Positions 29,291 to 55,714 of a DNA stretch of 64,000 nt are shown here, piece after piece; position 1 is the stretch's first letter, and each line of letters opens with the position of its first letter. This stretch comes from Flavobacteriaceae bacterium UJ101 (lineage in GTDB: Bacteria > Bacteroidota > Bacteroidia > Flavobacteriales > UJ101), in contig CP016269.1 of NCBI GenBank assembly GCA_001880285.1, positions 2,056,501-2,120,500 of the forward strand, read 5' to 3'. The notes under the pieces were generated by a model. The model did not search any database, was not told the origin of the DNA, and worked only from the letters and a program-made list of their open reading frames with translations. Position numbers and translations under genes: made by a program.

Positions 29291-32200
29291 TTAATTTTTC
29301 TTAATGAATTGTTGCTCATTTCTGTTAGCAAAGAAGGCTAAAATTAAAATGACAATGATAAGAGGTCCTGCCCATTCTAAAATTGGAATAGGATCTCCTG
29401 CTCCATAAGAGTGCATTCCTGATAAGAAGTAATTTACTCCTAAGAAAGTCATTAGAATAGAGGCAAAAGAAAAAATGGCAGCAATATTGTATGCAAAATA
29501 ACCTCGAAGTCCAGGAACTAAACGCATATGAGCAACTACAGCATAAACAAACATACTAATAAAGGCCCAAGTTTCTTTTGGATCCCAACTCCAATAACGT
29601 CCCCAGCTTTCGTTTGCCCAAACACCGCCTAAGAAAGTACCAATGGATAGAGCGTAAAGCCCAACCATCATAGATAACTCTGAAATAGCAGTTAATTCTT
29701 TAATGTTTAATGTTAATTTTTTATAATTATCTTTTTTTCGAATACACATTAATATTAGGTTAACGAGTCCAACAATAAAACTTAAACCTAAAAATCCATA
29801 ACTCGAAACAATAACAGCAACATGTACTACTAGCCAATACGATTTTAAAACAGGAACAAGATTTGTAACTGTAGGGGACATAACACTTAAAAATGAAAAT
29901 GCCATCAAAAGAACAGTCATTAATGAGCCTGAAGACAAAACAAAATAGTTTTTATAGGCAAAAATAATACTCGATAATAAAGTACACCATGCAACAAATA
30001 TAATAGCTTCATAACCATTACTCCATGGGGCATGTCCTGAGATATACCATCTGGCAGCTAAACCAATAGTGTGAAGTACAAAAGTTATTATAATGAAGAA
30101 ACTTAATATATTTCCAATCGTTGTAATATATTTTTTGTCACTATATAGATTTAAAAATGCTAAAATGATTAAGAAAGATCCTAAAATAGCATAAAGAATA
30201 ATACATACTTTAAAAATAGGGAATTTGTTATATAAAATCTCTAATTCAATTTTTTCTTTAGAAGGCAATTCAATGTCTTCAGTACGCTGAAAATCAGCTA
30301 TTTTTTGAAGATTTTCATTGGGTTTTGACCAGTCTTTTGTTTCTCGTGCTTTTAAAATAGAGTTAAAGTAATCACTTATAAAGATTTGTCCTTCTTTGAA
30401 TAATTCTCCGTCATGTGTTGCCCAGCTATTCCAGTCGTTATTATGTGCTTTTAAATCAGGAATTACCCAAAAATAACTACCATTTCCTATTCCTTCAATA
30501 GTACTTAAACGTTGAATTACTTTCAATACTTCTTTATCAAAATCACTACGTTCAGCCTCTGATTTATTGAAAGATTCTTCATAAACATCATATAATGATT
30601 TAGCAGTAGGATTTTCAGGATCTTTTTTTACCAAATCAACCATAGAGGTATACCATTTACCATTTTTTTCTATGGCATGTGTGATACTTTTAAGTTCTTC
30701 ACCTCCTTTTTTACCAACCAATATTATAGGCTGATTAAACCATTTAGAAGTTTCAAAAGTCATTGATAAATAAACCTGAACAGCATTTAATGAATCAATT
30801 TTATCACTTCCGTGTATTTCACCAATTAATTCTTTTGCATAAGTATGAATGGGTTTAATACGCCCTTGCTGATCTTGAACTAATACTTTTCCTAATTTTT
30901 TAGCATGTTCAGAATCGATAGTGAACGAATTTGTAAAACCATGATTAAAAGTTTGCCCTCCATGAGCTGCTTCAGATTGAGCTGTCTCGGTTTTATGAAC
31001 AGATCCATCAGTATGTATGTGAGTATCAGAAGGATTTTTACCATGCATATCAATTTCATGAGTGCCTGGAGCATCTGGTTTAACAGGGTTATGATTAGCG
31101 TTATGAACTGTTCCATCTTCGTGAACATGAGTTTCTTCTTGTTGGTTAACAGGATTATGGTTAGCATCATGTACTGTACCGTCTTCGTGAACATGAGTTT
31201 CAGTTTGTTTTTCTTTAACGACTGACTCAGTACTAGTTTGCGCATTTAATGCTCCAACAGAAAGAAGAGTAGCTATAACTAAGCTTGCTTTTCGTTTTTT
31301 GATAGAGTTTAAAACATGACGTACTTTACTGAAATAACTTCCTTTCCAGACTATAGTTAAAATCATACCTAATGTCATAACAAAATAACCTATATAAGTT
31401 ATTAATGTTCCCCAGAAATCAGCATTTACCGATAAAACTGTGGTTTGTTTTCCTTCGGGAGAAATGATATAAGAAGATTGAAAAAAGCGATAACCTTTGT
31501 AATCTAACACATTATTCATGAATATACGATAAGGAAATTTAGTTTCTCCATCTATAACGGTTACTTCACTGGCAAAAGAGGAAGGGTTTTCAGAACCTGG
31601 ATATTTTTCCAATTGAAAATCGTTCAACCGAATTTTAAAAGGCATTTTATATTTAGGGTCTAACCAAGAAGAACCATAACCTAAACTAATATTCAATCCA
31701 TTGATTTCATAAGTAGGACTATAAGTTGTATTAAATTGACGTCCCATGAACGATATTTTTTTAGTTTCTTTTCCTGATTTTAATTCTCCAATAACTAAGT
31801 TATCAATTTCTGTAGGTAGAATAACGAAACGAGCTTTATCGGTAGTATATAAAATTTGTTCAATTTTAGTTAACTCATTGGCTTTAACATTACCAGAATC
31901 ATTTTTCATCATGTTAAAAAAACCAAAATCATAAGGTGCTTGTAAATATAATTCATTGTCCTTTTCAATAATATTCATTATAGATTTATCAGTACTTTCG
32001 TATCCTAATTTTTGACCATCAAACTCGATAATATCACCTTTTAATAAGATTTCAGATTCTCGGACGGCTTCTCCACCATTTTGTCCTCCCATTTTAGTAA
32101 TAACCTCTACACCGGGATGTCCTTTTGAATATTTTTTTTGAATATAATCTAGTACACGAAATTCAACAGTTTTGTCCCCATAATGAATAGTTTTTTCAAA

Positions 32201-32641
32201 ATCTTTATGAAAAGGAGATAAAATATAGGCATCTTCACCATAATAAGGTCGTTTACCATCTTCTTTTACCATATATTTGAAAAAAGATTTGTACGAACGA
32301 ATAATATCTGCTGATTCACCTTCAGCAATATCCATCTGCCCTTCAAAGCTATGATAACGTGAGATAAAAGCCCCGATAAACATGATAATGAACGAAACAT
32401 GTAATAATAAAGTAGGAAGCTTTTTCCATGTATATAATTTATAACGTTCTATATTTCCAATAAAATTAAGGATTAATAAAACCATGATTAATTCAAACCA
32501 CTTGGTTTTGTATATCCAAGCTTGAGCTGTCGGTGTTCCATACCATGATTCTACAAAAGTTGCAATTCCCATTGTCGTTGCAAAGACAATGAGTAATAAG
32601 GTCATGGTTCTAGTTGAAAATAATATTTGGAAGAATTTCAT
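29291..32641 (-). CDS. ccsBA: fused cytochrome c biogenesis protein CcsB-CcsA with His-rich insert
   Basis: 1116 residues. System II cytochrome c maturation protein that exports heme and attaches it to apocytochromes in the periplasm. The N-terminal ResB/CcsB half opens with helices at about 12-30, 48-64 and 72-95 followed by a large periplasmic domain, closing with a helix near 412-430. The C-terminal CcsA half (from about 810) carries the heme-handling WWD region WANESWGRYWSWDPKE near residues 1010-1030 and conserved periplasmic His residues. Between the halves is a hydrophobic, signal-like segment (about 447-468, ending ALNAQ) and a His-rich region with 22-residue repeats (about 480-550), unusual for the family. 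Long fused CcsBA is normal in Bacteroidota. No adjacent cytochrome gene. Confidence 0.95.
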   Translation of the reverse strand: MKFFQILFSTRTMTLLLIVFATTMGIATFVESWYGTPTAQAWIYKTKWFELIMVLLILNFIGNIERYKLYTWKKLPTLLLHVSFIIMFIGAFISRYHSFEGQMDIAEGESADIIRSYKSFFKYMVKEDGKRPYYGEDAYILSPFHKDFEKTIHYGDKTVEFRVLDYIQKKYSKGHPGVEVITKMGGQNGGEAVRESEILLKGDIIEFDGQKLGYESTDKSIMNIIEKDNELYLQAPYDFGFFNMMKNDSGNVKANELTKIEQILYTTDKARFVILPTEIDNLVIGELKSGKETKKISFMGRQFNTTYSPTYEINGLNISLGYGSSWLDPKYKMPFKIRLNDFQLEKYPGSENPSSFASEVTVIDGETKFPYRIFMNNVLDYKGYRFFQSSYIISPEGKQTTVLSVNADFWGTLITYIGYFVMTLGMILTIVWKGSYFSKVRHVLNSIKKRKASLVIATLLSVGALNAQTSTESVVKEKQTETHVHEDGTVHDANHNPVNQQEETHVHEDGTVHNANHNPVKPDAPGTHEIDMHGKNPSDTHIHTDGSVHKTETAQSEAAHGGQTFNHGFTNSFTIDSEHAKKLGKVLVQDQQGRIKPIHTYAKELIGEIHGSDKIDSLNAVQVYLSMTFETSKWFNQPIILVGKKGGEELKSITHAIEKNGKWYTSMVDLVKKDPENPTAKSLYDVYEESFNKSEAERSDFDKEVLKVIQRLSTIEGIGNGSYFWVIPDLKAHNNDWNSWATHDGELFKEGQIFISDYFNSILKARETKDWSKPNENLQKIADFQRTEDIELPSKEKIELEILYNKFPIFKVCIILYAILGSFLIILAFLNLYSDKKYITTIGNILSFFIIITFVLHTIGLAARWYISGHAPWSNGYEAIIFVAWCTLLSSIIFAYKNYFVLSSGSLMTVLLMAFSFLSVMSPTVTNLVPVLKSYWLVVHVAVIVSSYGFLGLSFIVGLVNLILMCIRKKDNYKKLTLNIKELTAISELSMMVGLYALSIGTFLGGVWANESWGRYWSWDPKETWAFISMFVYAVVAHMRLVPGLRGYFAYNIAAIFSFASILMTFLGVNYFLSGMHSYGAGDPIPILEWAGPLIIVILILAFFANRNEQQFIKKN
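30993..31205 (-). repeat. His-rich 22-residue (66-bp) repeats within ccsBA
   Basis: Two units beginning THVHEDGTVHxANHNPV are exactly 66 bp apart: the + strand string CGTGAACATGAGTTTC occurs at 31120 and 31186. A third degenerate unit reads THIHTDGSVHKTE. Together they give over a dozen histidines, with another HGG...NHG stretch just after. Confidence 0.9.
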
Positions 32642-55566: not shown

Positions 55567-55714
55567 CTACAAAATTTTTAAGAGGGGGAATTTTTGTAAC
55601 GGATTAGACTATTTACCGATATAAAAAATGAAAAGTTTAAAACAATTACTTTTGGTATTGTTTCCAGTGTTATTTTTTTCACAGGAAATAGAACCAGACT
55701 TTATAAAAGAAATT
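55567..55714 (+). repeat. shared leader and signal-peptide block, copy 1
   Basis: Starts CTACAAAATTTTTAA, contains GGGGGAATTTTTGTAACGG, and runs through the first 29 codons of the 55.6-kb gene. Apart from a 2-nt length difference and substitution in the leader (AGA versus AATAA) and one synonymous change (TTG/TTA, codon 9), it is identical to 59123-59272. Confidence 0.95.

Follow-up and report, generated by a model that had tools for sequence, protein, structure and literature searches.

A conserved signal-peptide-like segment inside fused CcsBA proteins and its probable cleavage by signal peptidase I

The window analyzed here is a 64,000-nucleotide stretch of the genome of Flavobacteriaceae bacterium UJ101. 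Its minus strand carries a ccsBA gene (29291-32641) that is a single frame of 1,116 residues. A sequence-only reading of this gene had pointed to an unusual middle part, in which a hydrophobic segment resembling a signal sequence stands ahead of His-rich repeats in the chain. The locus raises the question of what a signal-like segment does in the interior of a polytopic membrane protein, and whether the repeats behind it take part in heme handling.

The gene had been read as a fusion of CcsB and CcsA, and profile searches confirm this by placing ResB (PF05140; 63 bits, cut-off 24.6) and Cytochrom_C_asm (PF01578; 125.5 bits, cut-off 29.9) in the same 1,116-residue frame. Both domains of a CcsBA protein are thus present in one chain, and the score against the NCBIfam equivalog TIGR03144 (cytochr_II_ccsB) falls just below its cut-off (181.4 versus 187.6 bits). 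The protein has the two TM-His residues, the two P-His residues and the WWD motif of CcsBA: H81, H940, H1038, H1077, W1013, W1017, W1019 and D1020 are invariant in 50 sequences. Alignment to 7s9y and a published table equate the four histidines with H83, H761, H858 and H897 of Helicobacter hepaticus CcsBA. The AF2 model, built on a 50-sequence alignment, has a mean pLDDT of 82.6 and a pTM of 0.80, with both halves folded. Its predicted fold is that of 7s9y (Foldseek E 7.8e-48, TMt 0.84, rmsd 7.6 over 1120 columns), and 7s9z is also matched (E 1.8e-38). Residues 450-504 and 521-562 have pLDDT values below 50, and repeat 2 is modeled in blocks at 47-62. Because pLDDT is low there, TM5 and the His repeats are not reliably placed in the model; AF2 gave no helix for TM5, which may merely reflect the shallow alignment. 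When the window's own family was searched for CcsBA, the source genome alone was found. Elsewhere this genome encodes another protein with weak similarity to the CcsA half (G000:C1:1576618-1577085), a 201-residue frame with 35% identity to residues 910-1074 that is perhaps a CcmC-type protein. The features of the gene are collected in Table 1.

Table 1. Features of the ccsBA gene, with positions in the window and the evidence for each
Feature	Position	Strand	Evidence
CcsB half, residues 1-467: TM1-TM4 with periplasmic domain 1, plus signal-like TM5	31241..32641	-	PF05140; AF2 helices 10-34, 47-66, 72-97, 409-431; alignment to 7s9y
Internal segment resembling a signal peptide (TM5), KKRKASLVIATLLSVGALNA, residues 448-467, with basic n-region, apolar run of 14 residues, L at -3 and A at -1	31241..31300	-	Alignments, column conservation; AF2 pLDDT <50 from residue 450
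Proposed signal peptidase I site A467↓Q468, Q-rule (Q at +1)	31238..31243	-	A 0.78 and Q 0.89 columns and [AGSC]Q in 85/93, Bacteroidota
Variable periplasmic linker, His-rich, residues 468-568, proposed free N-terminal tail of mature CcsA	30938..31240	-	Alignments, His count, AF2
His repeat 1 THVHEDGTVHDANHNPV, residues 482-498	31148..31198	-	TRF, genome pattern search, codon comparison
His repeat 2 THVHEDGTVHNANHNPV, residues 504-520, 66 bp from repeat 1	31082..31132	-	TRF, genome pattern search, codon comparison
His repeat 3, degenerate, THIHTDGSVHK, residues 540-550, 108 bp from repeat 2	30992..31024	-	Genome pattern search
Periplasmic domain 2 and CcsA half, residues 569-1116 and stop, WWD motif, heme histidines	29291..30937	-	PF01578; invariant H940, H1038, H1077; Foldseek to 7s9y

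Residues 448-467, KKRKASLVIATLLSVGALNA, form a short hydrophobic segment with Q468 directly behind it, so that its end reads ALNA↓Q. The (-3,-1) pattern is the hallmark of signal peptidase I (SPase I). Leu, which is common at -3 here, is tolerated by the enzyme but is not the best residue. The segment has a KKRK n-region and the other SPase I features listed in Table 1, and Q468 supplies the Q at +1 of the Q-rule. However, a SPase I signal is expected at the N-terminus, and TM5 is internal here and in the fused relatives; it is N-terminal in eight genomes with split genes, described below. In Bacteroidetes, the substrates of SPase I are reported mostly to expose Q (PMC5837995, PMC10653852). 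The window agrees with this habit: among the N-terminal signal peptides found by a Q-blind heuristic, all nine have [AGSC]Q, two of them being identical paralogues (13 hits, from which two lipoprotein-like sequences, one internal start and TM1 of CcsBA were set aside). In addition, the genome encodes a glutaminyl cyclase family protein (PF05096, E 3e-71). Two long ORFs on the plus strand of the window, 1,161 and 1,186 residues from starts at 55628 and 59186, share the identical signal peptide MKSLKQLLLVLFPVLFFSQEIEPDFI and are apparent tandem paralogues.

CcsBA relatives were gathered from the order, from the phylum (Bacteroidota) and from Campylobacterales. Full length in Bacteroidota was taken as a score above 480 bits against the window protein, a cut that retains 96 loci and leaves two fused proteins below it (L118, 461.8; L068, 391.8). 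Transfer of L066 and L059 to Campylobacterota, removal of the duplicates L178 and L187 and addition of the window protein give a Bacteroidota set of 93. The Campylobacterota set of 68 comprises 37 of 40 loci with frames above 780 residues, 29 others, and L066 and L059, and includes several paralogues from one genome. Between TM4 and periplasmic domain 2, the aligned fused proteins have first a short TM5-like hydrophobic segment and then a linker whose length varies widely. The segment belongs to the usual make-up of fused CcsBA and is no oddity of this genome.

Conservation at the end of TM5 is concentrated on the residues that a signal peptidase would read. In a MAFFT alignment of the 161 proteins, with columns of more than 50% gaps left out, the 93 Bacteroidota sequences have A at -1 with a frequency of 0.78 and Q at +1 with 0.89, versus 0.25-0.41 in the three preceding columns and 0.23-0.35 in the five that follow. 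The corresponding Campylobacterota columns have L at -3 (0.53), a poorly conserved -2 (0.18) and A at -1 (0.84), and the next retained columns are at 0.12-0.24. An [AGSC]Q pair lies 3-17 residues from the TM5 center in 85 of 93 Bacteroidota proteins; the background counts are 41 of 1262 for windows that follow other helices and 5595 of 93524 for windows placed anywhere in the proteins. In Campylobacterota the pair follows TM5 in 15 of 68 proteins (24/905 after other helices, 3375/64329 anywhere). When proteins are clustered at 55% identity, [AGSC]Q prevails in 23 of 26 Bacteroidota clusters and in 4 of 32 Campylobacterota clusters. The signature of the site is thus phylum-specific. The apolar run of TM5 in Bacteroidota has a median of 14 residues versus 17 in other helices, with overlapping quartiles (13-16 and 13-19). 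A recent structure labeled CcsA, 25vk_A (828 residues), actually shows a CcsBA fusion, and its TM5 region, with the sequence ASYA↓QETL, has a site of the Q type.

Several counts run against the SPase I reading. Eight of the 93 fused Bacteroidota proteins have no [AGSC]Q after TM5, and a site-scoring rule puts Q at +1 in just 67 of 93. The same rule places A at -1 in 82 of 93 Bacteroidota and 66 of 68 Campylobacterota proteins, figures that are partly built into the score. The short CcsBA proteins of Bacteroidales (48 shorter or lower-scoring loci, of which 11 were set aside to leave 37) have [AGSC]Q in only 10 of 37, with some pairs not at the TM5 end, and by a loose pattern a small-x-A ending of TM5 in 34 of 37. 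Their alignment is too gapped for column statistics, and therefore windows were counted instead. The low Q share of these 37 loci (between L070 and L111) contrasts with the Q-exposing habit of Bacteroidetes SPase I substrates.

Natural gene splits mark the same boundary. Separate ccsB and ccsA genes are present in eight genomes, five of family f6 (L114, L115, L116, L233, L234), two of family f16 (L231, L232) and one of Campylobacterales (L196, L197); the f6 count leaves out G367 and G394. In each, the ccsB stop lies directly before TM5, and ccsA begins with Met and a TM5-like segment, which resembles an ordinary N-terminal signal peptide. The seven genomes in which the genes are adjacent have a candidate ATG -4 to +53 nt from the ccsB stop, and the Campylobacterales genes are on different contigs. 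Judged by their placement rather than by a tree, the splits probably represent at least three separate events. They are few: most frames are fused among the matches listed in surveys that include 246 and 130 genomes, and when the 130 genomes were searched for further splits, no Campylobacterota frame below 800 residues was found among the matches listed. The seven split ccsA genes of the two Bacteroidota families (L114-L116, L231-L234) keep the TM5-like signal peptide, but in none of them is the likely +1 residue Q. This is a further count against the SPase I reading and slightly lowers our confidence in it. The site of L233, where VMSS precedes P, is poor. One locus not counted as a split, L198 (G086:C1:773300-776300), has a 557-residue CcsA frame that opens inside TM5 with a start that is not clear; another split, a frameshift and a pseudogene are all conceivable.

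Published work on CcsBA describes a proteolytic event near this position. Purified H. hepaticus CcsBA consists of two fragments that arise from a cut "at residue 368," and more than 90% of recombinant preparations are reported to be cut (PMC6299221). The proteins of W. succinogenes, H. pylori and C. jejuni are likewise cut, and split CcsBA is described as keeping its function (PMC6299221, PMC11322641). The cut site is placed near TM5 in a disordered region, and the authors argue against an artifact (PMC11322641). Protease-deficient E. coli did not prevent the cutting, deletion of residues 358-377 left proteolysis going, and in the passages concerned the protease behind this "natural proteolysis" goes unnamed (PMC6299221). 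A gene split at 368 gave ~15% activity and little CcsA, which the authors attribute to expression (PMC6299221, PMC11322641). Among the papers searched, those that mention both CcsBA and "natural proteolysis" nowhere name signal peptidase, and in passages of two further papers that mention both CcsBA and signal peptidase, the enzyme concerns other proteins.

The 7s9y chain reads SALCYALSSPQIAYA365 STQ368SQTDF (numbering hand-counted against H83 and H761), which puts an AxA site three residues before 368. Two features of these data count against SPase I: the three-residue gap between 368 and AYA365, and the failure of the 358-377 deletion to stop the cut. We conjecture that the deletion leaves SALCYA356↓L as a substitute site.

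The conservation, the gene splits and the published cut nearby lead us to regard the end of TM5 as a SPase I site, and the same three observations support the earlier suggestion that the helix ending in ALNAQ is a signal sequence. We consider it likely that SPase I cuts fused CcsBA at the end of TM5, which would serve as an internal signal peptide. The protein would be synthesized as a single chain and then cleaved where its fifth hydrophobic segment ends. TM4 is predicted to end in the cytoplasm, so that TM5 would restart export and take the second periplasmic domain across the membrane, with cleavage at its periplasmic end. The products would be CcsB with TM5 at its C-terminus, and CcsA consisting of periplasmic domain 2 and the heme-handling membrane part, and the two would stay together. 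Where Bacteroidota have Q at +1, the new N-terminus of CcsA would be Gln, presumably cyclized to pyroglutamate. In the organism studied here, mature CcsA would begin with a flexible tail of ~100 residues bearing three HxHxDGxxH units.

The broader proposal is held less firmly, although on balance we favor it. It states that the fused CcsBA proteins of Bacteroidota and Campylobacterota are membrane polyproteins that SPase I cuts at TM5 into two working subunits; that the protease of the "natural proteolysis" is LepB; and that CcsA of Bacteroidota with Q sites carries pyroglutamate and, in many lineages, a free His tail that binds metal or heme.

Alternatively, TM5 could be an ordinary uncut helix that only sets topology, the known proteolysis being the work of some other protease on an exposed linker. 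The disordered setting of the cut (PMC11322641) and its persistence after a 20-residue deletion across the site (PMC6299221) fit this explanation, as do the mismatch between 368 and 365 and the missing Q of the split Bacteroidota genes. However, an uncut helix does not predict an A at -1 and, in Bacteroidota, a Q at +1 beside poorly conserved columns. Nor does it predict the excess of [AGSC]Q after TM5 (85/93 versus 41/1262) or gene splits that give TM5 to CcsA, and the published argument against an artifact (PMC11322641) adds to these objections. We regard this alternative as improbable.

Cleavage by SPase I would account for observations that are otherwise puzzling. The enzyme is essential and, to our knowledge, is not among the proteases missing from the usual protease-deficient strains. 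If the proposal is correct, SPase I explains why neither such strains nor the deletion stopped the splitting of CcsBA. It would also suggest a reason for the weak activity and scarce CcsA of the gene split at 368, since CcsA would there lack its export signal, whereas natural splits lie before TM5. The proposal would also offer a way to make uncut or cleanly two-chain CcsBA, and would supply a candidate for Q-rule processing in an inner-membrane protein, a class for which pyroglutamate is named as still to be tested (PMC5837995). The unexplained splitting of CcsBA becomes a directly testable question, and the signal-like segment is of wider interest than the His repeats, which are a minor addition.

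The repeats were described from the letters as THVHEDGTVH units 66 bp apart plus a degenerate third unit, and the description holds, with the third copy out of register. HVHEDGTVH starts at residues 483 and 505 (22 residues, or 66 bp), and TRF reports a period of 66 with 2.0 copies and 84% matches; HIHTDGSVH starts at 541, 36 residues (108 bp) on. As a DNA pattern, HxHxDGxxH has three matches in the 3.07-Mb genome, all in the ccsBA gene, and a reversed control pattern has none, which rules out chance. The 17-codon blocks of repeats 1 and 2 differ by five synonymous bases and one D/N codon (two bases). Synonymous drift with a near-identical peptide implies that the protein sequence, not merely the DNA, has been kept. 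Read error, which had been named as a possible source of the differences, is unlikely given this pattern.

Among relatives, at least four His are present in 46 of 93 Bacteroidota linkers, and 22 of 93 have none. None of the 68 Campylobacterota linkers has at least four. For these counts the linker start was set at a fixed offset where [AGS]Q is unmatched and in all Campylobacterota. The linker of the window protein (105 residues) is the longest of the 93, which range from 2 to 105 residues, and ties for the most His (15). The linkers of Chryseobacterium and Pedobacter often begin KIETHG or KIDMHG, and L034, L035, L037 and L038 each contain one THVHEDGTVH-like unit, which rules out a His insert unique to this genome. 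The idea that the insert is foreign to the family therefore stands only for its length and its shared maximum of His, and not for the TM5-like segment, the variable linker or the richness in His. A Campylobacterales protein with a 1,248-residue frame (L200, G098) carries behind its TM5 site a long linker of degenerate repeats, SVDTNRTVRS being an example; judging from its sequence, this position tolerates quite different repeats.

Two accounts of the repeats differ from the one that we prefer. One makes the His array the central functional part of the insert: the array would bind heme, iron or copper and pass heme on to the active site of CcsA. Its three units occur in no other gene of the genome, its protein sequence is kept while synonymous bases drift, and both the share of His-rich linkers in Bacteroidota and the single units of relatives are in its favor. 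Against it stand the His-free Bacteroidota linkers and the absence of linkers with at least four His in Campylobacterota, the span of linker lengths and the low AF2 confidence. Moreover, the heme path published for CcsBA runs through four histidines outside the array, whose counterparts are the invariant H81, H940, H1038 and H1077 (PMC11322641). The suggestion that a His array serves heme carriage is thereby weakened, and a module of this kind is unlikely. Somewhat more credible, though still doubtful, is near-neutral tandem duplication in a flexible linker that needs only length and solubility, its abundance of His being incidental. Such a process agrees with the exact 66-bp period and with the variation of linker length and sequence among relatives, but not with five synonymous changes versus one amino-acid change over 17 codons, with every His kept, nor with His enrichment in several families.

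Our best guess is that the repeats make up a tail that binds metal or heme weakly and brings some benefit without being required. Their sequences look like those of a fast-changing tail, for which metal or heme binding is plausible, and the distribution of His among linkers indicates that the repeats are dispensable in the family at large.

The closest known system is CcsBA of H. hepaticus (7s9y, 7s9z), a System II cytochrome c synthase with the same fused ResB-CcsA architecture and fold. Its TM5 terminates at AYA365, close to residue 368 of the published cut. However, Ser follows AYA at +1 and there is no His-rich tail. In the Q-rule substrates of Bacteroidetes SPase I, A↓Q likewise ends a hydrophobic segment, and the glutaminyl cyclase family protein of this genome adds to the resemblance; those substrates have N-terminal signal peptides, whereas the segment described here is internal to a polytopic membrane protein. 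The linkers of Chryseobacterium and Pedobacter (L034, L035, L037) share the order of A or S, Q, an HG element and one THVHEDGTVH-like unit, where the linker studied here has two tandem copies and a third. FbcH of Bradyrhizobium is a cytochrome b/c1 polyprotein that is cut by signal peptidase. Although the proteins are unrelated, FbcH resembles the CcsBA proposed here in that a single chain is cut at an internal signal sequence to give two partner subunits.
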